The translations under genes and the position numbers were made by a program. Shown piece by piece: positions 11,565 through 63,388 of a stretch of 64,000 bases of DNA. Below the pieces are notes generated by a model. That model did not search any database, was not told the origin of the DNA, and saw only the letters and a list, made by a program, of their open reading frames with translations. Numbering within the stretch: the stretch's first letter is position 1; each line of letters begins with the position of its first letter. Origin of the DNA: Maribacter aestuarii. GTDB taxonomy: Bacteria; Bacteroidota; Bacteroidia; Flavobacteriales; Flavobacteriaceae. Where the stretch lies: contig NZ_CP107031.2 of NCBI RefSeq assembly GCF_027474845.2, positions 2,308,501-2,372,500 on the forward strand. The letters run 5' to 3'.

Positions 11565-11606
11565 ATAACAAAAGTTAAACAGAACCCCTATATTATTGAT
11601 CTTGAA

Positions 11607-11618
11607 TGACCTAGGTCA
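11607..11618 (+). promoter_or_regulatory. FNR/CRP-like palindrome, site 1 (DUF6799 gene)
   Basis: TGACCTAGGTCA, part of a perfect 16-bp palindrome AATGACCTAGGTCATT (11605-11620). The -7 box TAAATTTG lies at 11642-11649. Repeat centre to -7 box is 29.5 bp, placing the centre near -41.5 from the transcript start. Confidence 0.8.
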
Positions 11619-11676
11619 TTTCGCTGCCATAAGACCCGCCATAAATTTGCCCAAGTATTAATGTAAAACTATAGTA

Positions 11677-12351
11677 ATGAGAAAGCTAATATTAGTAGTA
11701 TCGTTAGCGGTGATAGGTACTGTCACCTTAGTGGCCCAAGATCAAGATAAAGCACAAGACCGAGATCAAGACCGATTAATGCTGGTAGACGGAGATGTGC
11801 TTCAAATTCGGGACCGCGATCAAATACGATTACAAGATCCGATTACTCTAAATGATGGTACCGTTGTAAACCCAGATGGTTCATACTTAACAAGAGATAG
11901 GGATAGACTACGCCTTCAAGATGGTGAATGTCTGGATAATGATGGAATTAAATACCGCAATGAGTATCAATACAGGTATAAAGTAAAACAAGAAAACCAC
12001 GGATTGAGCCAAGCACAAATACAGGAGCGCAACCAAAATAGGTATCAAGTAATGATGATTGATGGAGAAGCTTATCAAATTAGGAACAGAGAGCAAAACC
12101 GAATCGAAAATGAAGTAAACCTTGGTGATGGTATGATTGTAAATCCCGATGGCAGCTATCAGAATGCACAACGGAAACAATTGAGACTTCGGGACGGCGA
12201 ATGTATCAATATGGATGGGGCCATGTTCAAGAACATGTACCAACATCGTAAAATGATGGTTCAGAAGAATAAGATGACCAATAAAAAGATGTTAAAAAAA
12301 GGAATCAAAAAACCTTCTACGAAAAAGAAAGGTAAAAAGGTAACTGGATAA
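11677..12351 (+). CDS. Exported DUF6799 repeat protein
   Basis: The 224-residue protein starts with a signal peptide (basic MRKL, hydrophobic core, cleavage near VAQDQ at about residue 21). It then has two copies of a DUF6799 unit of about 65 residues (about 34-100 and 120-190). Each contains a DG-V/AYQIR-R-Q-R first half and a second half with NPDGSY-RLRDGEC-(D/N)MDG. The tail is highly basic (poly-Lys). DUF6799 function is unknown. The first of the stress-type palindromes in the window lies directly upstream, and a barrel-type outer membrane protein follows 69 bp later. Confidence 0.75.
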   Translation: MRKLILVVSLAVIGTVTLVAQDQDKAQDRDQDRLMLVDGDVLQIRDRDQIRLQDPITLNDGTVVNPDGSYLTRDRDRLRLQDGECLDNDGIKYRNEYQYRYKVKQENHGLSQAQIQERNQNRYQVMMIDGEAYQIRNREQNRIENEVNLGDGMIVNPDGSYQNAQRKQLRLRDGECINMDGAMFKNMYQHRKMMVQKNKMTNKKMLKKGIKKPSTKKKGKKVTG

Positions 12352-12362
12352 ATTGTATTTGA

Positions 12363-12392
12363 GGGCTTTGTCATATGATCATGGCAAAGCCC
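12363..12392 (+). terminator. Hairpin between DUF6799 gene and barrel gene
   Basis: GGGCTTTG (12363-12370) pairs with CAAAGCCC (12385-12392). No clear T-run follows, so it may be an attenuator or a processing or stability hairpin rather than a full terminator. Confidence 0.5.
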
Positions 12393-12420
12393 ATATCTTT
12401 CTCACCTAAATTCCACAATC

Positions 12421-13421: not shown

Positions 13422-13435
13422 GTAACCCAAGTTAC
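13422..13435 (+). promoter_or_regulatory. Variant palindrome GTAAC-N4-GTTAC, site 2 (efflux operon)
   Basis: GTAAC-CCAA-GTTAC is a perfect inverted repeat differing from the TGAC-N4-GTCA sites by G to A in each half. The -7 box TAATTTTG is at 13458-13465, again 29.5 bp from the repeat centre. It may bind the same Crp/Fnr-family protein or a paralogue. Confidence 0.6.
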
Positions 13436-13502
13436 TGACCAGCAAACTTTTAGATTATAATTTTGCAGAAGTAAGAAGTAAAGTGAAAAACAAAAATCAC
13501 CG

Positions 13503-14807
13503 ATGAAAAATATTGCATTCATACTGTTGGCATTTCTATTTCAGCTCCACATAAAAGCACAGGAAACGGTTCCGATTTCCAAACAGGAAGCCTTGGCAAA
13601 GGTAAAAGAACGGAACAATACCATGAAAATGGCAGAACAAGATGTGTTGATGGCCAAGGGCGATTTTAATCAGACTAATGCCGTATTGTTACCAACCATT
13701 GGTATTTCCCATACAGGTATCGCGACTACAAATCCGTTAATGGCCTTTGGCTCTAAACTGAATCAAGAAATTTTGACACAGGCGGATTTTAACCCTGAGC
13801 TGTTGAACAATCCATCCCAAATACAGGACTTTGCCACACGAGTTGAAATACAACAACCAATATTGAATTTAGACGGCCTATACCAGCGAAAAGCTGCAAA
13901 AGCCAAGTGGAATGCCACCGAATTGGAATCGCAACGGACCCAAGATTATGTAGCTCTAGAAGTAGATATGGCATATATGCAATTACAGTTGGCCTATAAA
14001 ACTGTAGAAGTGCTACAAAAAGCAAAAAAGTCGGCCACAGAAAATCTGCGAATTGCGACCAATAGTTTTGAACAAGGTTACCTGCAAAAATCCGATATAT
14101 TGGTAGTGCAGGTGAGGGTTACCGAAATCGATAATCAGCTGCAGTATGCCAAAAGCAATATCCTAAATAGCTCGAACTACCTTTCTGTTTTGATGGATGA
14201 AACTCCCTATCAGATTCTACAACCGACGGATTCCTTGACCTTGATTACTGAAACGATTTTATCGGAAGAATTCTCTGAAAATAGAAAAGATATTCAGGCT
14301 ATGGAGTCCGTCTCCGAAGCCTACAAACAACAATATAAGGCTGATAAAATGAGTTTTCTGCCCCGTTTGAACGCCTTTGGCACCTATGAATTACATGATA
14401 ATGAAATATTCCAGGGAGGTGCTAACGGCTTTCTTTTTGGAGCGTCATTACAATGGAATATTTTGGAAGGAACCAAACGCTTTGGGAAGGCCCAAAAAAG
14501 CAGGGCAGAGCTTGAAAAATCAAAATTGAAACTTCATCAGTATAAGTCAGAAAGCCAGCTGGAACTTAACAAGGCAATCCGCGGTTTGGCCGATGCCAAG
14601 AACAATTTAAAGCTTACAGAATTGGCGATGTTCCAGTCTAAAGAAGCGCTTCGTATTCGTACCAATCGATTTAAACAAGGACTTGAGAAAACGACCGAAT
14701 TGCTTATGGCTGAATCACAATATGCGCAGAAGCAATTGGAATACTACACCACCATTTTTCAGCACAACTATGCTTTGGCCTATATGCAATTTTTAACCAA
14801 TAAATAA
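13503..14807 (+). CDS. TolC-family outer membrane efflux protein
   Basis: 434 residues with a signal peptide (cleaved near KAQE, residue 20) and the two long coiled-coil hairpin halves of the OEP family (about 25-215 and 240-434). The second half carries the typical FGASLQWNILEG...KRFGKAQKSRAELE pattern. It forms the outer-membrane channel for the adaptor and RND pump encoded next (3 bp and 10 bp gaps). The operon is preceded by the variant palindrome, suggesting stress or redox control. Confidence 0.9.
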   Translation: MKNIAFILLAFLFQLHIKAQETVPISKQEALAKVKERNNTMKMAEQDVLMAKGDFNQTNAVLLPTIGISHTGIATTNPLMAFGSKLNQEILTQADFNPELLNNPSQIQDFATRVEIQQPILNLDGLYQRKAAKAKWNATELESQRTQDYVALEVDMAYMQLQLAYKTVEVLQKAKKSATENLRIATNSFEQGYLQKSDILVVQVRVTEIDNQLQYAKSNILNSSNYLSVLMDETPYQILQPTDSLTLITETILSEEFSENRKDIQAMESVSEAYKQQYKADKMSFLPRLNAFGTYELHDNEIFQGGANGFLFGASLQWNILEGTKRFGKAQKSRAELEKSKLKLHQYKSESQLELNKAIRGLADAKNNLKLTELAMFQSKEALRIRTNRFKQGLEKTTELLMAESQYAQKQLEYYTTIFQHNYALAYMQFLTNK

Positions 14808-14810
14808 AAG

Positions 14811-15899
14811 ATGGAAAAGAGAAATTATATAAAAACGGCAATCCTTACAATGACGCTAGTATTAGCGAGCTGCCGAGGGGATAAACCCAAAGTCGATGGG
14901 GATACTACAGCGGCCGTGCCAGTAACCGTCAATACCGTTACACAGGAAGACCGTAGTTCATTTTTAGTGGCGAGTGGCTCCATAGAGGCGGTAAAAAGCA
15001 GTGAATTAAGTACCCGAATGATGGGATATGTAGATAAAATCTATGTGAATATCGGAGATAAAGTAAGAAAGGGACAACTTTTGTTGAGCATCAATAACGC
15101 CGATCTATCCGCCAAACTGGCCCAAGTAAATGCGGGTATTACCGAAGCATCGGTAGCGTTTAATAATGCTGAAAAAGATTATAATCGGTATACCGAACTA
15201 TTTAAAGAAACTAGTGCCTCACAGAAAGAACTGGATGATATTACAGCAAACTACAAAATGGCAAAAGCAAGATTGGAATCTGCCATTCAAATGAAAAACG
15301 AGGTCAATGCACAATTTTCGTACTCTAATATAAGAGCACCTTTTGATGGGGTGGTTACAAACAAATTCATTAATGCAGGCGATATGGCCAACCCTGGTAT
15401 GCCTTTACTGGGAGTGGAAGCTCCAGGGTATTTTCAAGTATTGGCCATGGTGCCCGAATCGGAAATCTCACAAATCAAGGTAGGTACTGACGTTGAGCTA
15501 CTCCTAAAATCCTTGAATGAAAGAATAACCGGAAAAGTGGTCGAGGTAAGTACTTCGGCCAAAAGTACAGGGGGTCAGTATCTGGTAAAAGTCTTATTGG
15601 ACAAAACGGAAATCAATGTATTGTCGGGCATGTATGTCACTGTTCGTTTTCCAACCTCGCAAAAAGCGATGTCCCAATCAGTTTTTGTACCGGTAGAGGC
15701 CATTGTCGAACGCGGACAATTATCGGGTATCTATACGGTGAGCCAAAGCAACACCGCTTTGTTGCGCTGGTTGCGCTTGGGGCGCACTTTAGGCGAAGAA
15801 GTAGAGGTGCTTTCCGGGCTATCACCTGATGAACAATATATCGTCGACTCCCAAGGGAAGTTGTTCAACGGTGCCAAGATTAGTCTTTACGTAAAATAA
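14811..15899 (+). CDS. RND efflux periplasmic adaptor (membrane fusion protein)
   Basis: 362 residues. A lipoprotein signal with lipobox LASC (Cys at about residue 21) anchors it. The order is barrel-sandwich/lipoyl half (VDKIYVNIGDKVRKGQLLLSI), a coiled-coil hairpin (about 105-165), the second lipoyl half (SNIRAPFDGVVTNKFINAGD), then beta-barrel and membrane-proximal domains with VFVPVEAIVERG. It bridges the RND pump and the TolC-like channel. Start ATG lies 4 nt after the tolC stop. Confidence 0.9.
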   Translation: MEKRNYIKTAILTMTLVLASCRGDKPKVDGDTTAAVPVTVNTVTQEDRSSFLVASGSIEAVKSSELSTRMMGYVDKIYVNIGDKVRKGQLLLSINNADLSAKLAQVNAGITEASVAFNNAEKDYNRYTELFKETSASQKELDDITANYKMAKARLESAIQMKNEVNAQFSYSNIRAPFDGVVTNKFINAGDMANPGMPLLGVEAPGYFQVLAMVPESEISQIKVGTDVELLLKSLNERITGKVVEVSTSAKSTGGQYLVKVLLDKTEINVLSGMYVTVRFPTSQKAMSQSVFVPVEAIVERGQLSGIYTVSQSNTALLRWLRLGRTLGEEVEVLSGLSPDEQYIVDSQGKLFNGAKISLYVK

Positions 15900-15909
15900 T
15901 TTTAGGAAT

Positions 15910-18900
15910 ATGAAAGAAGGCTTAGCAGGCAAAATTGCCAAGGTTTTTATCAACTCAAAACTTACCGTACTATTGATGATTGTTTTTATGGTCATCGGCG
16001 TGTACAGTTCCTTTCTCATTCCTAGGGAGGAAGAACCGCAGATTGATGTGCCTATGGCGGATATTTTTGTCGGATACCCCGGGGCAAGTCCTACGGAAGT
16101 GGAATCGCGGGTCATCAAACCCTTGGAGAAATTGATTTCGAACATAAAAGGGGTAGAGTATGTGTATTCCACTGCCATGAAAGAGCAGGGAATGGTCATC
16201 GTACAGTTTTATGTAGGCGAGGATATAGAACGTTCGTTCGTGAAATTGTACAATGAAATTAACAAACATATGGACATTATGCCCCAAGGCGTTACATTTC
16301 CTTTGGTCAAGACACGAGCTATCGATGACGTTCCTATGTTGGGGCTAACGCTGTGGAGCGAGAATTATGACGATTATCAACTCAAACAAATTGCACAAGA
16401 ACTTACTAACGAAATTGAAAAAGTAAACGATGTATCCGCGACCCATAAAATCGGGGGTCGTGACCGACAGCTTAGAGTTGTTTTGGACAAGGATAAAATG
16501 GCGGAAAGCGGATTGGATTTTCTATCCGTTTCCGAAATGATCAAGGCCAATAACCAACAAATGGCCAGCGGCAGTTTTGACAAGAACGATATCGAGTTTT
16601 TGGTGACTACCGGACGATTTCTGAAAAACAACGAGGATGTTGAAAATTTGATTGTTGGTACGCAACAGAACAAACCCATATATCTAAAACAAATCGCTGC
16701 CATACAAGATGGTCCGGAAGTACCCAAAAATTATGTGTCATTAGGTTTTGGTCAGGCCAGCGAAAATGCCGCCACTTATAGATCGGAATATCCTGCGGTA
16801 ACCATTTCCATTGCCAAACGCAAAGGTGCCGATGCGATGAAGATTTCAGACATCATTCTGGAGAAAGTAAATCATTTAAAAAAAGACCTGATTCCCGATG
16901 ACGTACATGTAGAGGTTACGCGGAACTATGGTGAAACCGCCTCCCATAAAGTATCGGAACTACTGATGCACCTTATCGGTGCGATAATCGCGGTGACCTT
17001 TGTGGTCATGTTGGCCATGGGCTGGCGCGGTGGTTTAGTAGTGTTTTTATCGGTACCCATTACTTTCGCACTTACCCTGTTGAGCTATTATATGCTGAAT
17101 TATACATTGAACAGGATTACGCTTTTTGCGTTGGTTTTTGTGACGGGTATTGTTGTAGATGATTCCATCATCATTGCGGAGAACATGCACCGACATTTCA
17201 AGATGAAAAGGCTACCGTTCAAGCAAGCAGCATTATATGCTATTAATGAAGTGGGTAACCCAACGATTCTGGCCACGTTTACGGTAATTGCATCGGTATT
17301 GCCCATGGCCTTCGTTTCGGGTCTTATGGGCCCGTATATGTCGCCGATGCCCATTGGGGCTTCTATAGCGATGATATTGTCGCTCTTTGTGGCATTGACC
17401 ATAACACCCTACTTGGGATATATCTTCCTTCGGGGAAAAGAGAAGAAAGGAGAGGGAAAAGTAGAGAAACCTTTGGAGGATACTTTTATCTACCGCATCT
17501 ATGAGAAGTTTGAAAAACCTTTGATTGAGAACAGAAAGAAGCGTTGGCTCTTTTTAGGAATCACCTTCTTGTTGTTATTGGGTTCTATCGGACTGTTCTT
17601 TACCAAATCGGTTGCTGTAAAGATGTTGCCGTTCGATAATAAAAATGAATTTCAGGTTGTAATCGATATGCCCGAAGGCACTACTTTGGAGCGCACCGGA
17701 GTGGTTGCCCAAGAGATTTCGCAATACTTATCCACGAGGCCTGAAGTCATAAATTACCAAAGTTATGTAGGTACTTCCGCCCCAATAACTTTTAACGGTT
17801 TGGTACGACATTATGACCTGCGCGGAGGTAGTAATATGGCGGACATTCAAGTGAACCTTATTGATAAGGGAGAACGGAGCGCACAAAGTCATGACATCGC
17901 CAGTCTCTTGCGCCCAAAGATCCAGAAAATAGGTAATAGATACGATGCTAATATTAAAATTGTCGAGGTGCCTCCAGGACCACCTGTGCTCTCCACTATC
18001 GTCGGGGAAATCTACGGGCCGGATTATGACCAACAAATCCAAATAGCTAATCAGGTACAGGGTATCTTGAACAATACTCAGGATGTAGTGGACGTGGATT
18101 GGATGGTGGAGGCAGATCAGACCGAGTACGAGTTCGTTATCGATAAGGAAAAAGCGATGCTTTATGGCGTAGCGCCTCAGCAAATAGTACATACCATGAA
18201 CATGGCGCTTTCAGAAAGAGCTGTGACCACTTTGTATGACGAGGATGCCTCTGAGCAAATATGCTTGATTTTGGCTTTGGATGAAAAGGAGAAGTCCACC
18301 ATAAGCGATATTGCCCAACTCAAGGTGAAATCATTGCAAGGAACAATGATTACGGTCGGTGATTTGGTTCAAATTGAGGAAACAACACGGGCTAAAAATA
18401 TTTATCGAAAGAACCAGAAACGCGTTGTCTATGTACTGGCAGATATGGCAGGAGAATTGGAAAGCCCTGTATATGCGATATTGGGCATGACTGATAAACT
18501 GGCAGAAATGAACCTGCCCAAAGGATTTTCCCTTGATGAACTTTATTTGAATCAACCCGAGTTTGAAGATGATTATACGGTGAAATGGGATGGCGAATGG
18601 CAAATTACCTTGGAGGTGTTTCGAGATTTGGGACTAGCATTTTTAGGGGTCATCATCATCATTTATATCTTGATTGTCGGATGGTTCCAGAATTTTAAGG
18701 CTCCCATTGTAATGATGGTAGCCATTCCGCTGTCATTGATTGGAATCATATTGGGCCATTGGATGCTAGGTGCGTTTTTTACGGCGACTTCTTTTATTGG
18801 AATGATTGCCTTGGCCGGTATTATGGTACGAAACTCCGTTTTGCTGATTGATTTTATAAATCTGCGTTTAGCAGAGGGAATATCTTTGAAACAGTCCGTT

Positions 18901-19140
18901 ATCGAAGCAGGTGCCGTACGTACTACTCCTATCTTATTGACAGCGGGCACAGTGGTTATTGGGGCCTTTGTTATTCTGTTCGACCCAATTTTTCAGGGGT
19001 TGGCCATCTCCTTGATGGGTGGCACTATTGTTTCAACGGTATTGACGCTTTTGGTCGTTCCTTTGGTGTACTTCATGATCGAAAGAAAGAATTATCCAGA
19101 AACAGTGATTCAAGAAGTAAAAGGTAAAGTTGACGAATAA
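15910..19140 (+). CDS. RND-family efflux pump, inner membrane subunit (AcrB-like)
   Basis: 1,076 residues with the two-fold RND layout: TM1 near 15-35, large periplasmic loop, TM2-6 block, second loop and TM8-12 block. The TM4 proton-relay region has the VVDDSIIIAEN motif (two Asp), closer to hydrophobe/amphiphile pumps than to the heavy-metal (CusA) motif. The C-terminal part has AGIMVRNSVLLIDF. Substrate is not predictable from sequence. It is the third gene of the tolC-adaptor-pump operon, and the small PII-like and DUF2892 genes follow. Confidence 0.92.
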   Translation: MKEGLAGKIAKVFINSKLTVLLMIVFMVIGVYSSFLIPREEEPQIDVPMADIFVGYPGASPTEVESRVIKPLEKLISNIKGVEYVYSTAMKEQGMVIVQFYVGEDIERSFVKLYNEINKHMDIMPQGVTFPLVKTRAIDDVPMLGLTLWSENYDDYQLKQIAQELTNEIEKVNDVSATHKIGGRDRQLRVVLDKDKMAESGLDFLSVSEMIKANNQQMASGSFDKNDIEFLVTTGRFLKNNEDVENLIVGTQQNKPIYLKQIAAIQDGPEVPKNYVSLGFGQASENAATYRSEYPAVTISIAKRKGADAMKISDIILEKVNHLKKDLIPDDVHVEVTRNYGETASHKVSELLMHLIGAIIAVTFVVMLAMGWRGGLVVFLSVPITFALTLLSYYMLNYTLNRITLFALVFVTGIVVDDSIIIAENMHRHFKMKRLPFKQAALYAINEVGNPTILATFTVIASVLPMAFVSGLMGPYMSPMPIGASIAMILSLFVALTITPYLGYIFLRGKEKKGEGKVEKPLEDTFIYRIYEKFEKPLIENRKKRWLFLGITFLLLLGSIGLFFTKSVAVKMLPFDNKNEFQVVIDMPEGTTLERTGVVAQEISQYLSTRPEVINYQSYVGTSAPITFNGLVRHYDLRGGSNMADIQVNLIDKGERSAQSHDIASLLRPKIQKIGNRYDANIKIVEVPPGPPVLSTIVGEIYGPDYDQQIQIANQVQGILNNTQDVVDVDWMVEADQTEYEFVIDKEKAMLYGVAPQQIVHTMNMALSERAVTTLYDEDASEQICLILALDEKEKSTISDIAQLKVKSLQGTMITVGDLVQIEETTRAKNIYRKNQKRVVYVLADMAGELESPVYAILGMTDKLAEMNLPKGFSLDELYLNQPEFEDDYTVKWDGEWQITLEVFRDLGLAFLGVIIIIYILIVGWFQNFKAPIVMMVAIPLSLIGIILGHWMLGAFFTATSFIGMIALAGIMVRNSVLLIDFINLRLAEGISLKQSVIEAGAVRTTPILLTAGTVVIGAFVILFDPIFQGLAISLMGGTIVSTVLTLLVVPLVYFMIERKNYPETVIQEVKGKVDE

Positions 19141-19208
19141 GGAATACAGGAAGGATACGAACGAAACAATTTCAGCCTTCGCAGGAATGATATAAAAACT
19201 AATTATTC

Positions 19209-19514
19209 ATGAAACTATTAATTGTAACAGTAGTAGAGGAATTCGAGAAAGAAATTCTAAGACTTTTTAAGGAAGCTCGTATAGAAAATTTCAGTGGTTC
19301 TGATATTGATGGCTATAAAAACGTCACTTCGATGGTACACACATCCAGTTGGTTCCCTAGTGAGAAAGGAGGGGTAGAATCAAGTTTATTCTTTTCATTT
19401 ACGGAAGATGAGAATATCGACTCACTTTTTGAAATGATAAAAGAATTCAATAACAAGCTGGAAACAAACAATCCTATCAAGGCAATTGTAGTGCCTATCG
19501 AAAAATCAATTTGA
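19209..19514 (+). CDS. Small PII-like protein in efflux operon
   Basis: A 101-residue protein with a beta-alpha-beta pattern: MKLLIVTVVEEFEKEILRLFKEA at the start, a middle loop with Trp-Phe-Pro (SSWFPSEKGG), and a final strand KAIVVPIEK. This resembles PII-like or DUF3240-type small proteins that accompany RND/metal efflux systems and may sense a ligand or modulate the pump. The T-loop signature of true GlnB is absent. It lies 68 bp after the pump gene and 13 bp before the DUF2892 gene. Confidence 0.6.
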   Translation: MKLLIVTVVEEFEKEILRLFKEARIENFSGSDIDGYKNVTSMVHTSSWFPSEKGGVESSLFFSFTEDENIDSLFEMIKEFNNKLETNNPIKAIVVPIEKSI

Positions 19515-25556: not shown

Positions 25557-25591
25557 ACATCAAATCTAGTTGACTCTTGACCACTATAAAA

Positions 25592-25603
25592 TGATGGATA
25601 TCA
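25592..25603 (-). promoter_or_regulatory. FNR/CRP-like palindrome, site 22 (ABC/LolA-like operon)
   Basis: TGAT-GGAT-ATCA on the minus strand, with a perfect -7 box TAGATTTG at 25561-25568, 29.5 bp from the repeat centre. Predicted transcription starts at about 25556, the A of the start codon. Confidence 0.65.
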
Positions 25604-25857: not shown

Positions 25858-25869
25858 TGATACAAATCA
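25858..25869 (+). promoter_or_regulatory. FNR/CRP-like palindrome, site 3 (lipoprotein gene)
   Basis: TGAT-ACAA-ATCA, centre 25863.5; -7 box TACTTTTA at 25893-25900, exactly 29.5 bp away. Confidence 0.75.
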
Positions 25870-25953
25870 TTTTGAAGCTAGGACATACTGTTTACTTTTA
25901 TTTAAAATACGCCAACTACCGAAATTGTTACCTGTTTTATTTAAAGGAATAAA

Positions 25954-26690: not shown

Positions 26691-26758
26691 TTTTACAGTT
26701 GTGTCACTAGCAATACTTTCGGATAGTATTAATAGTTGTTTAACCTAAAATAAAAATT

Positions 26759-50778: not shown

Positions 50779-50790
50779 TGATAAAAATCA
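50779..50790 (+). promoter_or_regulatory. FNR/CRP-like palindrome, site 13 (first Usp)
   Basis: TGAT-AAAA-ATCA, centre 50784.5; -7 box TACATTTG (perfect) at 50814-50821, 29.5 bp away. Confidence 0.8.
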
Positions 50791-50842
50791 TTTACCGGGC
50801 CGTTTTTAGAATTTACATTTGAGTTAACTAAGACTAAATACC

Positions 50843-52976: not shown

Positions 52977-52988
52977 TGACCTTGGTCA
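52977..52988 (+). promoter_or_regulatory. FNR/CRP-like palindrome, site 14 (VOC gene)
   Basis: TGAC-CTTG-GTCA, centre 52982.5; -7 box CAAATTTA at 53012-53019 (two mismatches), 29.5 bp away. Confidence 0.72.
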
Positions 52989-53063
52989 TTTCCCGAAAGG
53001 TTAGAAAGAACCAAATTTATCCCTCAAAATCGAATTGATTAATCACTTATTAAAAAAATAAAG

Positions 53064-53432
53064 ATGGCATCTATCATACATTTTGATATTTCTGCGGACG
53101 ATGTGCTCAGGGCTAAAAACTTTTATGAAAAATTATTTGGTTGGAAAATTGAAAAATATCCTACTGGCCCTCAAGAATATTATCTTATTGAAACTTTGGC
53201 AAAGACTGGAAAGCAAGGAATTGGTGGCGGTATAGCAAAAAGGGAAAAGGCAGATCAGCAAATTACTAATTTTATAGAGGTGGATTCCATTGATGAAGCC
53301 ATAGCTAAGGTGAAAGAACTTGGTGGAGAAATCCATGAGCCTAAATCCGCTATACCGAATATTGGCTACATCGCTGCCTGTAAGGATACCGAGGGGAACG
53401 TTTTTGGGCTTATGGAGGTTGTAAAGGAGTAG
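53064..53432 (+). CDS. VOC family (glyoxalase-like) protein
   Basis: 122 residues with the paired beta-alpha-beta-beta-beta units of the VOC superfamily: IHFDISADDVLRAKNFYEKLFGWKIEKY at the start and a second half ending CKDTEGNVFGLMEVVKE. Metal-ligand positions fit small VOC proteins, but the reaction cannot be told (glyoxalase, dioxygenase or resistance type). Confidence 0.88.
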   Translation: MASIIHFDISADDVLRAKNFYEKLFGWKIEKYPTGPQEYYLIETLAKTGKQGIGGGIAKREKADQQITNFIEVDSIDEAIAKVKELGGEIHEPKSAIPNIGYIAACKDTEGNVFGLMEVVKE

Positions 53433-54208: not shown

Positions 54209-54220
54209 TGATAGATGTCA
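54209..54220 (+). promoter_or_regulatory. FNR/CRP-like palindrome, site 15 (sigma-like gene and AI-2E permease)
   Basis: TGAT-AGAT-GTCA, centre 54214.5; -7 box TAGTTTTA at 54244-54251, 29.5 bp away. Confidence 0.78.
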
Positions 54221-54328
54221 TTTTTATCCCAACGATTTACCCCTAGTTTTATACCAAGTTGTCTCAATTGGAAACTCAAATGAGTTAATTACCAAAGTAG
54301 ACTGCAACTAATCTACAGAACCACGTTT

Positions 54329-55024
54329 ATGATGTCTAATAAAGAATTACAAAAGGATAAGAAGGAAATTCAGTTTGAACAGTTTTACAAAAAAATCGCC
54401 AACATTATTCCTGACTTAAAAAGGTTTATGACGGGGAGTCTAAAAGCTGCAGAATATCAAGGGCTGCTGGACAAGGGATTCTACGATACAGATGAAATGT
54501 TGGATGAAGTCTATTTGGAAGCCTTCCAGGATTTTGCTTCTGAAACCGATGCGATAAAACTTCGCCGATCACTGTTTAGAAAGGCAATTAAAAAATTAGA
54601 GGGGAAAGAAGCGGAGGAAGTACCCGATGAAGTAAACACCCATTCCCTTTTAAAAGCGGAACTTAAAACATTGAACGAAGATTTCACGACCGAAGCGGAC
54701 GGAGATCGAATACTTTTTGAGGATTTGGACGATATTTCCTATAAACAAAAAAAGGCTTGGTCAAAAGAGATTCATTTAGATGATTTTTTAGAAAAGCAAT
54801 TAGTACGAAAGCTTGGGCTTAATGAAAGTGCACTACTATCAGAAGAAAAAAGAAGGACTCTTGGGATATTGTACACTACCATCCCCGAAAGAAGTAAAAC
54901 AGTAATTGAACTGCATATTTTTGGAAATCAGGACAAGCATGAAATCGCTGAAATTATCGAGGTTCCCGAAGAGGTAGTTGAAAAAGTTATGTTCAAGGTC
55001 AAGGAAAGGTTCAAGCTACTTTAA
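54329..55024 (+). CDS. Sigma-70-region-4-like DNA-binding protein
   Basis: 231 residues, soluble, acidic in the middle. The N-terminal 95 residues are helical (FYKKIANIIPDLKRFMTGSLKAAEYQG..., like sigma region 2 or a mimic) and the last 60 (TLGILYTTIPERSKTVIELHIFGNQDKHEIAEIIEVPEEVVEKVMFKVKERF) match a sigma-70 region-4 HTH. It may be a divergent sigma factor, anti-sigma/sigma-mimic or regulator. No ECF-type anti-sigma gene is beside it; the AI-2E permease follows by 20 bp. Confidence 0.6.
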   Translation: MMSNKELQKDKKEIQFEQFYKKIANIIPDLKRFMTGSLKAAEYQGLLDKGFYDTDEMLDEVYLEAFQDFASETDAIKLRRSLFRKAIKKLEGKEAEEVPDEVNTHSLLKAELKTLNEDFTTEADGDRILFEDLDDISYKQKKAWSKEIHLDDFLEKQLVRKLGLNESALLSEEKRRTLGILYTTIPERSKTVIELHIFGNQDKHEIAEIIEVPEEVVEKVMFKVKERFKLL

Positions 55025-56887: not shown

Positions 56888-57523
56888 TTACAATCTTTTA
56901 ACAAGAGCCTCACGCTCCAGTTGTTCGATGATGCGGATTACATAATCATTAACGGACAAGGTAATATTAACAGGATCAATAATATCAAAAGTACCGACCC
57001 AGACCAAGGATTTATCCTTATCATCCTTGATATTATAAATTGAAGTCTCAATATGAAAAACTTTGTAATCTTCGTAATAGTCTGGCGTGTAATAGATATC
57101 CTGAAACCTATAAAAATATGGTCCGAAACGATACCACCAGTTGTACCCAAAGGTGTAATATCCGCCCCTATGCATTGTTTTGTCATCTACCCCTATAATT
57201 GCCGTAATTGCAACAGCATCAAAACCTTTTTGCAAAAGCTCTTCCTTTAGAGTCTCTATTTCTTCTTCGCTCCTTTTTACAGCTGTGAAGGATTGATCTA
57301 TGGCCACACTGCTTTCGTAAGCATTGATTCCTCTGGACATAAACTCTTCTTTTAGTTTTTCCTCAAAAATTTTGCGTGCTGTAAGGTTATCCGTCATACC
57401 AATAATCAAAAGCTTTTGAGGACTGAAGATTTCAACTTCTTCGTTTCTCCAGCTGTCCACAAATCGTGTTGAGGAACATGCCGTAGTCATAAGTATAGTG
57501 AGGATACAAGCGATTTTCTTCAT
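56888..57523 (-). CDS. Putative lipoprotein, DUF4136-like
   Basis: 211 residues: lipobox TTAC (Cys about residue 16) followed by SSTRFVDSWRNEE, then an alpha/beta domain with KLLIIGMTDNLTARKIFEEKLKEEFMSRGINA, a Tyr-rich strand region (YYTFGYNWWYRFGPYFYRFQDIYYTPDYYE) and VWVGTFDIIDPVNI. The layout is like DUF4136/GNA1162-type outer-membrane lipoproteins. Function unknown. Confidence 0.75.
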   Translation of the reverse strand: MKKIACILTILMTTACSSTRFVDSWRNEEVEIFSPQKLLIIGMTDNLTARKIFEEKLKEEFMSRGINAYESSVAIDQSFTAVKRSEEEIETLKEELLQKGFDAVAITAIIGVDDKTMHRGGYYTFGYNWWYRFGPYFYRFQDIYYTPDYYEDYKVFHIETSIYNIKDDKDKSLVWVGTFDIIDPVNITLSVNDYVIRIIEQLEREALVKRL

Positions 57524-57574
57524 GATATTTATATTTTATGGAGCAAAAATATGAACCTGAGGTTGTGATAACAA

Positions 57575-57586
57575 TGACCTCTATCA
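57575..57586 (-). promoter_or_regulatory. FNR/CRP-like palindrome, site 16 (lipoprotein-membrane protein operon)
   Basis: TGAC-CTCT-ATCA, centre 57580.5; minus-strand perfect -7 box TATTTTTG at 57544-57551, 29.5 bp away. Confidence 0.78.
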
Positions 57587-57898: not shown

Positions 57899-58057
57899 AA
57901 TTGGTATCACATTACTTAAATTTTTGAATGCAGATCAAGCTGGAACGCACTAGCCGCGTATACACTTGGAATTCTGAACTTAAGTATTAATGCAATACCC
58001 ATTTATAGCTGCTAAGGCATTACTGCTTAGGAGCTTTTTCATGACTTCCAAAGAGAA

Positions 58058-58085
58058 AAAACAGGAAGCCGAAGCCTCCTGTTTT
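58058..58085 (-). terminator. Hairpin with UUCG loop and T-run ending unit A
   Basis: On the minus strand AAAACAGGA pairs with TCCTGTTTT, closed by GGC-UUCG-GCU (one G-U), then six T: a classic intrinsic terminator. Confidence 0.85.
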
Positions 58086-58246
58086 CCATAAAGAAATGAA
58101 ATTCATCTGTACCGTCTATCAATCTTTTAAATCACTTTATTGCTAAAATGACCTAACTGATCAATTTGGGCACCAACTGCATCCTTTTCTTTACTTTAAC
58201 CTATATCTTCTTGCAAAAATATAAGTCAATACCTTCCTGTTGTATA

Positions 58247-58278
58247 AGATACCGGATCACCGAAGTGATCCGGTATCT
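58247..58278 (-). terminator. Strong hairpin with UUCG loop before unit A
   Basis: AGATACCGGATCAC and GTGATCCGGTATCT form a perfect 14-bp stem with a UUCG loop on the minus strand. It is the first strong stop for a transcript started at about 58462 by site 17, giving a possible RNA of about 215 nt. Confidence 0.75.
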
Positions 58279-58497
58279 AAGAAGAGAATATTTCAACCCA
58301 ATTTCCGCTTACACTGACATCTAGTAGAATTTATTACTAAATCCGTTCAGAATTCAAATGGTATAAAAGAGTTTTCGTTACCTCTTCTTGTTTTTTGGAT
58401 TTAGTTTCCCCCGATTAAAATCCAAATTATTATTTTTCAAAGAACTTATTTTTAATTTCCAGACCACTAAAATATGCGCTTATGGTACCACTTAAAA

Positions 58498-58509
58498 TGA
58501 CCTAGGTCA
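58498..58509 (-). promoter_or_regulatory. FNR/CRP-like palindrome, site 17 (noncoding locus)
   Basis: TGAC-CTAG-GTCA, the same perfect core as site 1, centre 58503.5; minus-strand -7-like box TATTTTAG at 58467-58474, 29.5 bp away. There is no protein gene downstream on the minus strand before 57523, so it probably drives an RNA. The end of pfkB (58532) is on the other side, so it is not a pfkB promoter. Confidence 0.72.
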
Positions 58510-58531: not shown

Positions 58532-59467
58532 TTAACAATTTTTCTTTAACCATTCGTACAGGTCCTCCACCTCATACTTGTTGCAAAATTGAGTGCCAGA
58601 ACGCATGGTGGCTGCCGCACCACAGGCCACTCCATAGTGGACCATCTCCCTTAGTGATTTTCCCTGTACTAGACTGTATACCATGCCGGCTACCATACTA
58701 TCACCAGTTCCAATAGTAGTTTTTTGATGGACAACTGGTGAGGGGATATATTCTACAAACTCTTTTGTAGCAAGTAACGCTCCTTTGGCGCCCAAAGAAA
58801 TAACTAGAACCTCACATTTATTTTGAGTTAAAAACTTTTTCGCTAAGGAATCTAAGTGTAACGCCGAGATTGATTCAACACCCATTAAAATGCTAAACTC
58901 TTTTAAATTTGGCTTCATCATAAAAATACTGGCCTTTTTGCTTGGGAGCAATGCATCACCAGAGGTATCTATAATAAGCTTTGCCCCATTTTTATCGGTT
59001 ATTTTCGAAACCCTTATATAAAAATCCGAAGGCACCCCCTGGGGTAGTTTACCGCTAGCTACCAGAATATCCCCCTTTTGCAAACTTTCTTGCAGTTGCG
59101 TTAGTACTTTTTCCCATTCCTGTTTTTGCACATGTGGCCCAGGAACCCCAAACCGATATTGTAAGTTGGTAAGGGTGTCAGTAACCGACAGGTAATCCCT
59201 AGTCCTATCTTCAATTGAAATAGCTTTTTGTGTTATCTCTCTCATTGCTATCATTTGTCTAAGATGATCCCCAGTAGAACCTCCAGATAAATGCATGCAT
59301 AAAGATGGTGAGCCTAGCTCTTTTAGAACGCGCGAAACGTTGATACCTCCTCCACCTATATCGTAAACAGGTGGGTCGCACCTTAACTTAGTATTTGGTA
59401 TGATACCGGCTACAGCAGTATCTTTCTGAACCACAGGGTTCATGGTAAGTGTAATTATTTTAGGCAT
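58532..59467 (-). CDS. 1-phosphofructokinase family hexose kinase (PfkB)
   Basis: 311 residues of the PfkB/ribokinase superfamily: N-terminal GGGGINVSRVLKELG sugar-binding motif near residue 37, and the C-terminal TTIGTGDSMVAGMVY with catalytic Asp and anion hole near 255. It probably phosphorylates fructose-6-phosphate or fructose-1-phosphate. PfkB-type kinases of this kind accompany universal stress and Hsp20 proteins in the mycobacterial DosR regulon (Rv2029c). It is 40 bp after the protease gene pair in one operon. Confidence 0.9.
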   Translation of the reverse strand: MPKIITLTMNPVVQKDTAVAGIIPNTKLRCDPPVYDIGGGGINVSRVLKELGSPSLCMHLSGGSTGDHLRQMIAMREITQKAISIEDRTRDYLSVTDTLTNLQYRFGVPGPHVQKQEWEKVLTQLQESLQKGDILVASGKLPQGVPSDFYIRVSKITDKNGAKLIIDTSGDALLPSKKASIFMMKPNLKEFSILMGVESISALHLDSLAKKFLTQNKCEVLVISLGAKGALLATKEFVEYIPSPVVHQKTTIGTGDSMVAGMVYSLVQGKSLREMVHYGVACGAAATMRSGTQFCNKYEVEDLYEWLKKNC

Positions 59468-59507: not shown

Positions 59508-59705
59508 TTACCTTTTTGGAATTTTCGCCAATAACCGCATAACCTTCCCTTTTCTTAAAATAGTCGCTTCTACAGTATCACCGGATTTAAAATTTTGCAA
59601 AAGCGACCAAGCTCTTCCGAGGTTTTGCCTATTAATCAAGGGAATGTCCTCCAGAGTCAACAGAATATCGCCACCAACTATAAATTCGTCATCGTCTATG
59701 GTCAT
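59508..59705 (-). CDS. C-terminal part of trypsin-like/PDZ protease (frame interrupted)
   Basis: 65 residues: MTIDDDEFIVGGDILLTLEDIPL then RQNLGRAWSLLQNFKSGDTVEATILRKGK, which is the second half of a PDZ domain. Its ATG overlaps the TGA of the upstream frame (ATGA), and the first half of the same PDZ domain (GLYGGYSK) is at the end of that frame, so the two together are one protein broken by a one-base shift. Confidence 0.8.
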   Translation of the reverse strand: MTIDDDEFIVGGDILLTLEDIPLINRQNLGRAWSLLQNFKSGDTVEATILRKGKVMRLLAKIPKR

Positions 59706-60535
59706 TTACTATAACCACCATAAAGACCCATGGCTTCCCCTAAGGAGAATGGCGCCACGTTTTGTACTAGTATCCCCGCTTCCTGTGGTAGATTAAATAT
59801 TTCTGCTAAAGACCCACTTAGTATAGTAGCATCTATCCCTATCCAAATGGGATGCTCTTCACCCAATAGTTCTTGTGCGATATTAGATGTTGCTGCAAAG
59901 GATACCCCTTGAAAACCATGGGAATTACTCAATATAAAACTAGCAACACCAATTACCTGGCCCTTCATATTGAACAACGGCCCACCGGAACTACCTTCGT
60001 TAACTGCTGCATCGGTCTGTATGAACTCTGCAATAGGAAATCCGCTAGCAAAATTTGGTCTAGCGTGTATACCGCTGACATACCCGACCGAAAGGGAATG
60101 CCCCAGTCCAAAAGGAGCCCCAATGAGAAAAACCTGATCTCCTATTTTAACGTCATCCGAGTCCGTTAGGTGAGCTACCGAAAGGGGAGTGCTTTTCTGT
60201 TCGGTAAGTCTTATAAGTGCTACATCGGCAAAGGGATAAGAGTATACTACCTTGGCCGGAAGTTCCTCACCGTCTGAAAATTTAACCCGAACCAATGAAG
60301 CTCGTTGCACTATATGTGAGGCAGTCATGATGTCGCCCTCATTTGAAACCACAAATCCGGAACCGATGCCTTCCAGCGGCACAATCATTGACAATTCGCC
60401 CCGGCCCAATTCTCTAGGTTGCCAAGTCTTAATCAATACCACAGATTCACTAACCTTGTTGTATAATTTACTTAAGCTCTGGGAGAAACCGAACGTAAGC
60501 CAGAAGAACGCCACTATTAATTTTATTCGGGTCAT
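59702..60535 (-). CDS. Trypsin-like (HtrA-type) serine protease with split PDZ domain
   Basis: 277 residues with a signal peptide (residues 1-18) and a serine protease domain with the full triad: His74 (TASHIV), Asp104 (FADVALIRL) and Ser182 (NEGSSGGPL). It ends in GLYGGYSK, which is the first part of a PDZ domain; the rest is in the next frame (59508-59705). An active periplasmic or membrane protease could still be made, but substrate binding by the PDZ would be lost unless the shift is bridged. It heads the operon with pfkB. Confidence 0.88.
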   Translation of the reverse strand: MTRIKLIVAFFWLTFGFSQSLSKLYNKVSESVVLIKTWQPRELGRGELSMIVPLEGIGSGFVVSNEGDIMTASHIVQRASLVRVKFSDGEELPAKVVYSYPFADVALIRLTEQKSTPLSVAHLTDSDDVKIGDQVFLIGAPFGLGHSLSVGYVSGIHARPNFASGFPIAEFIQTDAAVNEGSSGGPLFNMKGQVIGVASFILSNSHGFQGVSFAATSNIAQELLGEEHPIWIGIDATILSGSLAEIFNLPQEAGILVQNVAPFSLGEAMGLYGGYSK

Positions 60536-61042: not shown

Positions 61043-61110
61043 TATAAATTTTTTAGAACCATTTAATCGTTTCCATTTACAAAGAAACGAGTGAAAAAAA
61101 AGGTGCCAAA

Positions 61111-61122
61111 TGACTCAGGTCA
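61111..61122 (-). promoter_or_regulatory. FNR/CRP-like palindrome, site 18 (decayed gene)
   Basis: TGAC-TCAG-GTCA, centre 61116.5; minus-strand -7-like box TTTCTTTG at 61080-61087, 29.5 bp away. Facing the decayed gene at 60677-61042. On the plus strand the equivalent position is CTTTTTTC, a poor match. Confidence 0.6.
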
Positions 61123-61470
61123 TAGTGGTGTGCAATACTTTCTGCCTTTTTTCGTCGTCATCCAATCAATAAAATTGATAATCTAAAAATTACAGATTAC
61201 AATATGACGAGTCGAAAGGTTGCTAGGTGGAGGTAAAAATTGACCTTATCTGAAGTGATGGTACCTTTTGCACCCATCAGTATCCCAATATGCTTTTAAA
61301 AAATTTACTGCCAATCTTACATATTTTAAAGATTCATAGAGTTATGATACGTGACAATTATCATTTTAATGGAATTCAAAAAAGAATTTCTAAGCGTTCT
61401 CGGCTACCGATAAAAGTGGTTAGTTTCTAATTTTTAAGGTGTCACTAATAACTCTAATTTCTACATCCTG
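61123..61470 (+). other. Region without a supported gene
   Basis: A 28-codon frame from ATG 61344 (MIRDNYHFNGIQKRISKRSR...) is the only notable frame, with basic composition, but nothing else supports it. No hairpins of note. Confidence 0.3.
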
Positions 61471-61482
61471 ATAGAAGTCATT
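61471..61482 (+). promoter_or_regulatory. FNR/CRP-like palindrome, site 19 (baeRF-like gene)
   Basis: TGAT-AGAA-GTCA, centre 61476.5. The nearest -7-like box, TTACTTTG at 61503-61510, is 26.5 bp away, so the geometry is off by 3 bp from the others. Confidence 0.5.
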
Positions 61483-61526
61483 TTGATATTTCAATCCAAT
61501 CGTTACTTTGGCCAAAAAGTTTGGTT

Positions 61527-62699
61527 ATGCATACTTCTGAAATTCACCCGTTACCGAAAGAGATTTTTGAATCATTAATAGAAACCCACGCACTGCATTG
61601 TGTTTCTATCTATCTTCCCATGGATAAAAAGGGACAGGAACAAAACTTACATCTAGCACAAGGCTTTCTTAAAAAGTGTATTAACGAAGTACGGGATACG
61701 TTGACGCAACATCAAATGCATATTGATGAAATTAACAAACATCTCGATCCCGTAGCACAACTTCTGGACAGAGTGGATTTTTGGCGAAACCCCTCAGACG
61801 GACTAGCCATTTTTTTAAACCCTAAAGATGGGATGCAGTATTTTAAGGTCCCAATTTCTTTCGAGGTGAAAACCTATGTCTCCAGCCATTACTATTTAAA
61901 ACCATTATTGCCATTATACCATAATGTGGGTATGTATTACCTATTGGAACTCAGCCAAGATTATGTAAAATTGTACGAAGCATCTAGGTTTCATTTCAAA
62001 GATGTATACGTTGAAGATTTTGCCCCTAAGCGCCTAGAAGAAGCGGTAGGTTTTGATCACAAGCCAAAAATGTTGCAGTTTAGAACTGGGCAAAATGTGC
62101 ATAGCGCTGGTTCATTTCATGGGCATGGCGAAGGTAAAGATGACGAAAGAAAAGAACTAGTGACCTTCTTCAGGGCCGTTGACAAAGGTGTGAAAAAAGT
62201 GATTGGGCACAAAAATGTTCCCTTGGTATTGGTTTGTGTAGACCATTTATTCGATATCTATAAAGACGCCAGTACGTATCCAGAACTTCATCCAGAGAAT
62301 TTGGGAGGCGATCCGGAATTTAGAGGTAAAACCAGTTTGCACGAAGCATCTTGGAATTTGATGGAAAAGCATTTTACAAAGCACCAATCCCAGAAGGCAC
62401 TACAATTTAACGAGCTTTATCATACTCAGAAGACCTCTTACGAAATAGATGATATTCTCAACGCTGCCTTACATGGAAAGGTCGATACCCTCTTCATTGC
62501 TGATGAAGACGATATCTTCGGCACTTATGATTTTGAAAATAACAAGATTATAACCGATGACGAAAAGGACTTAAGCAATACCTCATTGACCAATTTGGCA
62601 GCGATAGAAGCCTTTAAGAGAGGTGGCAAAGTCTATGTTTTGCCCTCAAATGAAATGCCATTAAAAGAGAGTTCTATGAATGCGGTTTTTAGGTATTGA
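61527..62699 (+). CDS. baeRF-like (archaeo-eukaryotic release-factor family) protein
   Basis: 390 residues from ATG 61527 (TTG 61521 is in frame). The fold pattern is that of the baeRF3/baeRF7-type families: ETHALHCVSIYLPMDKKGQEQN..., WRNPSDGLAIFLNP, VGMYYLLELSQDYVKLYEASRFHF, GHKNVPLVLVCVDHLFDIYKDASTYPELHPE, and a C-terminal eRF1-like domain with DTLFIADEDDIFGTYD. eRF1-type proteins act at the ribosome, but the bacterial baeRF families lack known function. It precedes the archease-like gene by 135 bp. Confidence 0.78.
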   Translation: MHTSEIHPLPKEIFESLIETHALHCVSIYLPMDKKGQEQNLHLAQGFLKKCINEVRDTLTQHQMHIDEINKHLDPVAQLLDRVDFWRNPSDGLAIFLNPKDGMQYFKVPISFEVKTYVSSHYYLKPLLPLYHNVGMYYLLELSQDYVKLYEASRFHFKDVYVEDFAPKRLEEAVGFDHKPKMLQFRTGQNVHSAGSFHGHGEGKDDERKELVTFFRAVDKGVKKVIGHKNVPLVLVCVDHLFDIYKDASTYPELHPENLGGDPEFRGKTSLHEASWNLMEKHFTKHQSQKALQFNELYHTQKTSYEIDDILNAALHGKVDTLFIADEDDIFGTYDFENNKIITDDEKDLSNTSLTNLAAIEAFKRGGKVYVLPSNEMPLKESSMNAVFRY

Positions 62700-62749
62700 A
62701 CGGCCCCACCCCATGTATTACAAATTGATAGTCTGAAAGTCATAAATAC

Positions 62750-62761
62750 TGACACAGGTCA
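62750..62761 (+). promoter_or_regulatory. FNR/CRP-like palindrome, site 20 (archease-like gene)
   Basis: TGAC-ACAG-GTCA, centre 62755.5; -7-like box TAAATTCT at 62785-62792, 29.5 bp away. Confidence 0.68.
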
Positions 62762-62834
62762 TTGTAATAATTTGTTGTCTTCTTTAAATTCTGGGTGCTG
62801 GTTACGAATAAATCTGAATCAAAATAATACACTC

Positions 62835-63317
62835 ATGCACTTAGAAGTTGAAAAATCTAAGAAACACAAAAGGAGGCCTATTAAAAAAGCCTTGGAAACT
62901 CCACGTTCGCAAATCACAGTCGAGGGACTATCGTTACAACATTTGTTTAAAAATAGTCTTAGAGGTTTGGGTCACCTGTTAAGTCCCGGAGCATGTAGTT
63001 CGGCTAAACATTATGATTGCACAATGAAAATTCAGGTAACGGCGGAGAATAGTAAAGATTTGCTGCTCAATTTTTTGACCGAAATATTGGCATTGACCCA
63101 CAAGCACCATACTATTTTTTGCACCATGTATGCCGAAGAAATTACCGAAAGCAAAATTGTCGCACAAGTTTATGGCACTTGGTTCAAGAATTTTGACATG
63201 AAAATAAAATCTATAGCCAAATCAAAATGTTATATCAACAGAAAAGAGGACTTTTCATATACAGGTACCATTGTCTTTGAATTAGGAGATATGATCACGC
63301 CAATTCCAACTTCATAA
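62835..63317 (+). CDS. Diverged archease-like protein
   Basis: 160 residues from ATG 62835; the longer frame from 62772 starts upstream of the predicted transcript start. After a basic N-terminus it has VEGLSLQHLFKNSLRGLGHLLSP and the pattern KIQVTAENSKDLLLNFLTEILAL followed by VAQVYGTWF, DMKIKSIAKSKCYIN and GTIVFEL, which follow archease (GEDLEELLVNFLNELLYL...). The N-terminal EHTADVGI metal motif of true archease is not present. Archease promotes guanylation and multiple turnover of the RNA ligase RtcB; no RtcB is in the window. Assignment is by pattern only. Confidence 0.55.
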   Translation: MHLEVEKSKKHKRRPIKKALETPRSQITVEGLSLQHLFKNSLRGLGHLLSPGACSSAKHYDCTMKIQVTAENSKDLLLNFLTEILALTHKHHTIFCTMYAEEITESKIVAQVYGTWFKNFDMKIKSIAKSKCYINRKEDFSYTGTIVFELGDMITPIPTS

Positions 63318-63376
63318 AAACCTGTAGTCTGTCTTTTCTTTATGGGTTAACGTAGTGTATTAAACACCCGTCAGAC

Positions 63377-63388
63377 TGACTCAAGTCA
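63377..63388 (+). promoter_or_regulatory. FNR/CRP-like palindrome, site 21 (PepSY-like gene)
   Basis: TGAC-TCAA-GTCA, centre 63382.5; perfect -7 box TAGCTTTG at 63412-63419, 29.5 bp away. Confidence 0.8.

Follow-up and report, generated by a model that had tools for sequence, protein, structure and literature searches.

In Escherichia coli, the class II promoters of CRP and FNR hold the regulator as a dimer at -41.5, beside the core promoter, where it activates transcription. An Fnr-type promoter also gives rise to FnrS, an enterobacterial small RNA that ends in an intrinsic terminator, and in the FixL-FixJ-FixK2 cascade of rhizobia a PAS kinase acts through FixJ on a separate FixK2 step. DosR, a regulator tied to low oxygen, is not a member of the Crp family. 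The DosR regulon and the lxa locus of Burkholderia cenocepacia link universal stress, small heat-shock, BON and phosphofructokinase genes to low oxygen (PMC6127331). Here we describe a 64,000-nucleotide stretch of Maribacter aestuarii (the window, positions 2308501-2372500 of the single 3.86-Mb contig NZ_CP107031.2), in which a short palindrome recurs at one fixed distance from a promoter box. Judging from the sequence, this element, (A/C)TGAY-N4-RTCAT centred 29.5 bp before TAnnTTTG, is probably the site of a Crp/Fnr-type activator that serves a predicted regulon for low oxygen and stress, comprising about 70 promoters.

Operator sequence, spacing and distribution

The palindrome TGAYNNNNRTCA has 25 exact matches in the window, while 100 shuffles gave a mean of 3.81 and a maximum of 8. 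Eighteen of them have, at precisely 29.5 bp from their centre, a TAnnTTTG box with no more than one mismatch, which makes 19 promoters, since the palindrome at 46567 carries boxes at both flanks. At other spacings the box is found at 0.7% per palindrome side in the organism's own islands and at 1.6% in background stretches (based on 12 palindromes); the chance expectation is about 0.4 boxed palindromes among the 25 (binomial P about 2e-28 for the 18 seen), and in eight background stretches none of 12 palindromes is boxed at 29.5 bp. A preliminary description of the window had reported such palindromes at 22 places, 20 of them at this distance, and had judged the spacing hard to obtain by chance. 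This observation is confirmed. Indeed, 20 of the 22 places are exact palindromes (with 61471 corrected to 61469), and the box stands at 29.5 bp with at most one mismatch in 18 of the 22, in 19 when 13422 is measured from its own centre, and in 21 when the two-mismatch boxes at 52977 and 62750 are included. The two other places do not belong to the set: 13422 reads GTAACCCAAGTTAC and was reassigned to a separate GTAAC-N4-GTTAC set, while 48667 reads TGACCTGGGTCT, one base off the palindrome, and was dropped for having no box within one mismatch at 29.5 bp. Five palindromes absent from the earlier list, at 16368, 18737, 24959 and 53818 (all intragenic) and at 61352 (intergenic), have no box within one mismatch at 29.5 bp, and it is correct that no such palindrome precedes a gene in 1-11 kb or 14-25 kb.

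Genome-wide, the exact box gives 24 matches at a spacing of 23 nucleotides (N23) versus 6 summed over 30 other spacings; with one mismatch allowed anywhere in the pattern there are 78 matches versus 6 for the reversed pattern. By hand tally, as for the phylum survey and the regulator-group site counts below, the region 967-1075 kb accounts for 39 of these 78 and 2267-2378 kb for 27, so that 66 fall in two islands and 12 outside them. In block A (960-1060 kb) and block B (2260-2392 kb, without 2300.0-2308.5) taken together, 54 of 78 palindromes are boxed at the spacing. The proposal of one regulon belonging to the stress island of the window thus keeps its shared operator and loses its confinement to the window, given the second island at 967-1075 kb.

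The same composite is found throughout the family. Among 199 family genomes, 184 have at least one exact match, with a total of 1616 matches at N23 versus 35 for the reversed pattern and 2044 over 30 other spacings, that is 68 per spacing, a 24-fold excess. In 80 named loci around the receiver-Crp fusion gene described below, 181 exact boxes stand at N23 and at most 16 at any other spacing (5 to 44); for near boxes the corresponding figures are 457 and at most 28. According to a simple open reading frame (ORF) caller, 436 of the 457 near boxes are intergenic, 386 of the 433 intergenic boxes for which a start was found lie within 150 nt of the start codon, and the median distance from box end to start codon is 23 nt. 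The scan of own and related genomes that the preliminary description had proposed therefore returns an enrichment, and the pairs are not equally common in control DNA, be it background stretches or the reversed pattern. The next commonest exact-box spacings in the named loci are 11, 12 and 24 (16, 14 and 14 versus 181), which may represent different geometries, or else sequences repeated among related loci. A statistical artefact of AT-rich intergenic DNA, favoured by short half-sites and boxes and by the fact that boxes were sought after the palindromes, has a negligible probability: it is refuted by the reversed-pattern and spacing controls and contradicted by the base preferences outside the pattern at -35 (T) and +1 (A), as well as by the dependence of site numbers on regulator genes.

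As regards the geometry, the promoter box of Flavobacterium psychrophilum is placed at -12 to -5 in the promoter description of PMC9723704; because the palindrome centre is 29.5 bp from the first base of this box, it falls at -41.5, both in this genome and in the family, as the preliminary description had supposed from class II CRP/FNR promoters. The -41.5 position is common to E. coli class II promoters and to those described here, which differ in having TAnnTTTG at -12 to -5 instead of a -10 TATAAT, in keeping one spacing family-wide, and in that some palindromes are two-sided, with a box on each flank. Two-sided cases make up 5 of the 54 boxed palindromes of the own blocks, against an expectation of 0.4, and 33 of the 423 in the 80 named loci, against 3.7. 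The operator shape was determined from 518 promoters of the own stretches and the 80 loci, with related loci counted singly, at three positions that lay outside the search pattern. T occupies position -35 in 94% of the 518 promoters versus 30% of 152 unboxed palindrome sides, C and A together account for 94% at -48, and the predicted +1 is A in 50% versus 32% of the unboxed sides; in the own genome alone the counts are 58, 60 and 33 of 62, respectively. The strict FNR box TTGAT-N4-ATCAA is ruled out, since 2% of the 518 promoters have its T at -48 and 0% have its A at -35.

The palindrome abuts the -33 region, and a bound dimer could block polymerase there, as would be expected if the palindromes were repressor operators overlapping that region. 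We regard this as very improbable, since a repressor would tolerate other positions, whereas the centre lies at exactly -41.5, the class II activator position, in 1616 matches, and the -33 region is merely a loose T-run (T in 59-60% at -33 and -32). Such a loose -33 region is typical of activator-dependent promoters. The activator reading, in which a dimeric Crp/Fnr-type protein at -41.5 would contact RNA polymerase and switch genes on, is thus the one followed here.

Across the phylum, 123 of 296 genomes have a match. In the family these are 30 of 30 (own genome included), each with at least two, and they extend to 5 of 6 in the rest of the order and 31 of 37 in the rest of the class. One genome of another lineage of the phylum has 28 composite promoters versus 0 in the control.

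Candidate regulators and the signal

The genome contains four HTH_Crp_2 genes. The first (2280180-2280797) encodes an FNR-like protein, lies near a cbb3 oxidase gene and has a site upstream of its own start. In an alignment with a solved FNR-type chain, its cysteines C5 and C8 match the CxxC and C107 the distant cysteine, and the glutamate and arginine of its recognition helix align as well; C5, C8, C54 and C107 are present in 30 of 30 close relatives, a set made without a cysteine filter, and in 19 of 20 distant relatives aligned, with the twentieth (L221) read by eye, in a set that had been filtered on CxxC. The differences from FNR are that the cysteine six residues after the CxxC is missing, with the invariant C54 instead, that the helix residue before the arginine is I rather than S, and that the operator is without the outer T of TTGAT-N4-ATCAA.

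The second type of candidate is a receiver-Crp fusion. Its intact copy (1052656-1053708) encodes a single 350-aa protein with a receiver, a cNMP and an HTH_Crp domain, whose nearest named protein, from an uncultured Maribacter, is 91% identical; a second receiver-Crp gene (1001192-1002263) is divided between two frames that overlap. These three Crp-type proteins have the recognition helix TE(S/T)xIR in common. The helix had served as a filter when fusion frames were first picked, and it was recounted without it: in 80 of 80 aligned loci it reads TE(S/T)LIR (76) or PESLIR (4). The receiver residues D9, D10, D52, S82 and K104 are kept in at least 97% of 75 fusions. The fourth Crp gene, at 1017923, was dropped as a regulator, its helix VVVSR being different.

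A fusion frame was extracted at 74 of the 80 loci. A kinase gene lies upstream in 69 of these and a class II promoter directly behind the fusion gene in 65, and the next gene begins like a universal stress gene in 48 by a strict pattern; of 12 misses that were printed, nine are near-variants, two have no extracted frame and one has no next gene. The first PAS domain of the kinase resembles DosP and FixL (best E 2.7e-14), and its residue H66, lined up by eye with the heme histidine of FixL and DosP, is H in 70 of 70 sequences, own included. The motif also turns up in PAS domains for which no heme is known, and heme binding by the kinase is therefore only a suggestion.

Because the FNR-like protein and the fusion both have the helix TE(S/T)xIR, they may act on the same sites. 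The former would do so as a protein whose four invariant cysteines are predicted to hold an oxygen-labile iron-sulphur cluster, the latter after predicted phosphorylation by the PAS histidine kinase encoded just upstream. The view of the sites as one FNR/CRP-type regulon is thus partly supported: a Crp/Fnr-type shared operator stands, while a single regulator gives way to probably several, as three Crp-type genes share the helix. The candidates for the Crp/Fnr-family gene that the preliminary description had wished to see identified are these FNR-like and receiver-Crp genes, and no finding points to HcpR for the TGAY sites.

The number of sites per genome follows the regulators. It averages 12.9 in 63 genomes with both, 8.8 in 38 with the fusion only, 6.3 in 70 with the FNR-like protein only and 0.8 in 28 with neither, a group that includes all 15 zero-site genomes; the thresholds (E 1e-38 and 1e-60) were set after seeing the tables, and the best 10 candidates per genome were scored. 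The off-spacing counts per genome go from 9.6-11.3 down to 7.7 in the genomes with neither and drop no further, so that genome size alone does not explain the site counts. These figures also bear on a division of labour in which the FNR-like protein is the true activator and the fusions tune or repress a subset or answer another signal. In its favour, the FNR-like gene is located near cbb3 and behind a site of its own, and the 70 genomes without a detected fusion include none with zero sites. We nonetheless consider it rather unlikely, as none of the 38 genomes with a fusion and no FNR-like protein above threshold lacks sites either, the sites persist here in spite of an FNR-like gene that is shortened as assembled, and among the ten genomes seen to carry the promoter-borne small RNA described below (22 of 39 matching genomes examined) the fusion is present in all ten and the FNR-like protein in six.

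With regard to the signal, the targets outside the window include the cbb3 oxidase, a radical-SAM protein (HemN-like by eye), a ribosome-hibernation-type protein, universal stress proteins, a pyruvate-phosphate-dikinase-type protein, a cation ATPase and a PfkB-like gene at 1019758 (by eye). Those in the window include Hsp20, two triple-BON proteins, a universal stress protein, FtsH-type and DegP-type proteases, an acyltransferase and a CheB/CheR-PAS protein, as well as several proteins without any Pfam family; the pfkB gene of the window (58532-59467) has no site upstream. In F. psychrophilum, oxygen limitation leads to a strong induction of cbb3 and heme-synthesis genes (PMC9723704). Since the sites precede cbb3, HemN-like, universal stress, Hsp20, BON, PfkB-like and ribosome-hibernation-type genes, and since F. 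psychrophilum responds in this way, the signal would be falling oxygen. The triple-BON family was found in just five of 120 genomes, and 9 of 11 triple-BON genes in five genomes have a class II promoter; as this family is so restricted, the island of the window probably represents a local expansion of a more extensive regulon.

Nitrosative or general redox stress is another candidate signal, considering that HcpR and PgRsp of Porphyromonas gingivalis respond to nitrosative stress and redox changes (PMC12040651), and that the site at 13422 bears the motif GTAAC-N4-GTTAC given for HcpR2 in PMC1274295. It appears improbable for the TGAY sites: these precede cbb3, HemN-like and stress-protein genes, no hcp, nor or nos gene was noticed behind them in a scan that covered part of the targets, and the GTAAC set is separate. 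In particular, GTAACCCAAGTTAC at 13422 has an exact box, TAATTTTG, 29.5 bp from its own centre. In the 199 family genomes, GTAAC-N4-GTTAC with 16-28 intervening bases before the box has matches in 149, and 131 of the 150 GTAAC sites listed have exactly 22 bases, that is the same -41.5 geometry; matches occur in 12 of the 28 genomes with neither regulator versus 137 of the 171 others (hand count). In this window the HcpR2 operator is found at 13422 only, and the genes behind it are of efflux type by eye, whereas the HcpR2 regulons predicted for most Bacteroides hold only hcp (PMC1274295).

Several observations weigh against the low-oxygen activator reading. One of the four cluster cysteines of FNR is missing from the FNR-like protein, and its gene ends about 25 codons short of its close relatives, with the reading continuing in another frame; the second receiver-Crp gene is also split, its reading resuming in the other frame, so that only 1052656-1053708 is intact as assembled. 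The FNR-like gene and a cation pump gene both break at A-runs. Other split genes in the stretches analysed suggest assembly indel errors, although the two broken regulator genes may be either such errors or real. Moreover, candidate scoring may miss fusions (neither regulator was detected in G121 and G174, two genomes with 5 sites), and the regulator groups are uncorrected for phylogeny and size: 15 of the 28 genomes with neither are below 2.5 Mb, and the 13 larger ones average 1.3 sites. A promoter behind the fusion gene is lacking at 9 of 74 loci and before 2 of the 11 triple-BON genes, and outside the class 57 of 223 genomes have a match, mostly one each, which is near chance.

Predicted small RNA and the promoters of the window

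Two promoters, at 58467-58509 on the minus strand of the window (box TATTTTAG, no gene within 900 nt downstream) and at 999101, have no gene close behind. Each is followed by non-coding DNA of about 225 nt; the two stretches are related (68% identity), and both close with a strong hairpin and a T-rich run. The copies lie at 58240-58462 (minus strand) of the window, with a fold z of -5.2, and, for the 999-kb copy, at 19148-19366 of the stretch L032. A covariance model built from four copies, from which L161 was left out because it aligned over the promoter only, picks up a match with E of at most 0.01 in 39 of the 397 genomes of the family; the best locus was examined in 22 of the 39, down to E 0.00114. 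A class II promoter (box within two mismatches) stands 102-161 nt before the match in all 15 loci with E of at most 1.6e-5, 13 of which are independent of the model, while the remaining two, L252 (the copy in the window) and L253 (of the same sequence as L152), had contributed to it. Promoters are also present at L268 and L269 and absent at L267 and L270-L273, four of these five overlapping reading frames. From +1 to the end of the match, 18 copies measure 214-233 nt. Across 20 distinct copies the terminator hairpin is paired in 98.6% of cells, while 10 of its 14 pairs have changed at both positions, a covariation reached by none of 500 shuffles; no other conserved helix was predicted on the 20-copy alignment.

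Of 4227 Rfam families, the only match of the window at the gathering threshold is one tRNA, and eight loci with a small-RNA copy have no Rfam match up to E 1. A protein-coding reading was rejected, as no ORF of at least 60 codons covers the core in 13 of the 15 best loci and copy A has no equivalent of the 55-codon frame that is the longest in copy B. In the 199-genome sample, all ten genomes seen to have a promoter-borne copy have the fusion, which is found in 101 of 199 overall. A small RNA family of the Flavobacteriaceae, of about 220 nt and behind class II promoters, is thus predicted, and it would represent one output branch of the regulon. Like FnrS, it is predicted to start at an Fnr-type promoter and to end at an intrinsic terminator; it differs in having no Rfam relation in the loci searched, in its length and in its two copies in the genome.

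Tandem copies occur, three in L257 behind one promoter (two of them without a promoter of their own) and two in L259; the window has a weak second model match at 58043-58197, and the RNA adjoins a pfkB-like gene, recognised by its protein start, in 6 of 17 promoter-bearing loci. In the own stretches and named loci, 42 class II promoters have no ORF start within 250 nt, and besides the RNA described here these may drive additional small RNAs or small genes, or precede genes whose starts were called wrongly.

The remaining promoters of the window are spread over both strands. On the plus strand, 11607-11649 (TGACCTAGGTCA with box TAAATTTG) precedes the DUF6799 gene 11677-12351, and the HcpR2-like element 13422-13465, of the same geometry, precedes TolC/RND efflux genes named by eye (13503-19140). 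Further on, 25561-25603 (minus strand, box TAGATTTG) is upstream of a LolA-like gene (24786-25556) and ABC export genes, the latter named by eye, while on the plus strand 25858-25900 (box TACTTTTA) is upstream of 25954-26643, without Pfam family, and 26679-26721 (box TACTTTCG) of the Hsp20 gene 26759-27223. The neighbouring cation-ATPase-like gene, 27343-29996, consists of two overlapping frames split at an A-run. The two triple-BON genes, 32494-33171 and 34846-35514, have their promoters on the minus strand at 33240-33282 (box TACCTTTA) and 35553-35595 (box TATCTTTG), and between them the plus-strand promoter 33333-33375 (box CATTTTTG) is upstream of 33487-33906, without Pfam family.

Three minus-strand promoters follow: 40993-41035 (box TACATTTA) upstream of CheB/CheR-PAS, PAS kinase and receiver genes (40948-35733), 42374-42416 (box TATTTTTA) upstream of 41841-42347, which has no Pfam family, and 45269-45311 (box TAGTTTTG) upstream of a CMD gene (44866-45237) and then the FtsH-type gene 42926-44767. 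The same pathway may receive input from the CheB/CheR-PAS protein and from the receiver protein at 35733. From the two-way operator, the left promoter, 46536-46578 (minus strand, box TAGATTTG), faces the acyltransferase gene 45518-46384, and the right one, 46567-46609 (plus strand, box TTATTTTG), faces 46607-47053 and the DegP-like protease gene 47081-48586. On the plus strand, 50779-50821 (box TACATTTG) is upstream of the universal stress gene 50843-51712, which is followed by a second gene of similar sequence, the palindrome at 52977-53019 with the weak box CAAATTTA (two mismatches) is upstream of a glyoxalase-like gene (53064-53432), and 54209-54251 (box TAGTTTTA) is upstream of 54329-55024, without Pfam family; on the minus strand, 57544-57586 (box TATTTTTG) is upstream of 56888-57523, also without Pfam family.

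Towards the right end, the minus-strand promoter 61080-61122 (box TTTCTTTG) is separated by 544 nt from the next gene, the protease-like 59702-60535, and the small-RNA model has no match behind it. The last three elements, all on the plus strand, are 61469-61511 (box TACTTTGG) upstream of a baeRF-type gene (61521-62699), the palindrome 62750-62792 with the weak box TAAATTCT (two mismatches) upstream of an archease-like gene (62772-63317), and 63377-63419 (box TAGCTTTG) upstream of 63470-63985, which has a weak PepSY-like match below cut-off.

Relation to known systems and significance

The FixL-FixJ-FixK2 system, treated in PMC9104804, resembles the present one in a PAS kinase, here with the aligned histidine in 70 of 70 sequences, a receiver, a Crp-type output and a cbb3 target. 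It differs in that receiver and Crp output are one protein here, without separate FixJ and FixK proteins or a separate fixK step, and in that the half-site is not TTGA. As in the lxa and DosR gene sets, universal stress, Hsp20 and BON genes (by Pfam) and the PfkB-like gene at 1019758 (by eye) stand behind sites; the differences are the phylum and the two separate islands found here. In the open-licence literature we found no flavobacterial study of the operator, the receiver-Crp fusion or the small RNA. A fuller picture, which we offer tentatively and hold slightly more likely to fail in some part than to be right throughout, would be a hypoxia regulon of the Flavobacteriaceae with an FNR of rearranged cysteines, a one-protein FixJ-FixK served by a FixL-like kinase, both reading one operator, (A/C)TGAY-N4-RTCAT, at a rigid -41.5 position, with divergent promoters served in places by a single palindrome, a new FnrS-like RNA and a dormancy programme that is DosR-like and arose independently in this phylum.

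Transcription control in the Bacteroidota is poorly mapped, and the combination of one spacing rule, an operator and candidate regulators makes a regulon of about 70 promoters predictable here and countable elsewhere. It ties Crp-type activation, as proposed, to the TAnnTTTG promoter and adds, in GTAAC-N4-GTTAC, a second operator class with the same geometry, while a small-RNA family is gained together with its likely control. If oxygen is indeed the signal, the regulon would parallel, from a different phylum, the low-oxygen programmes of DosR and lxa.

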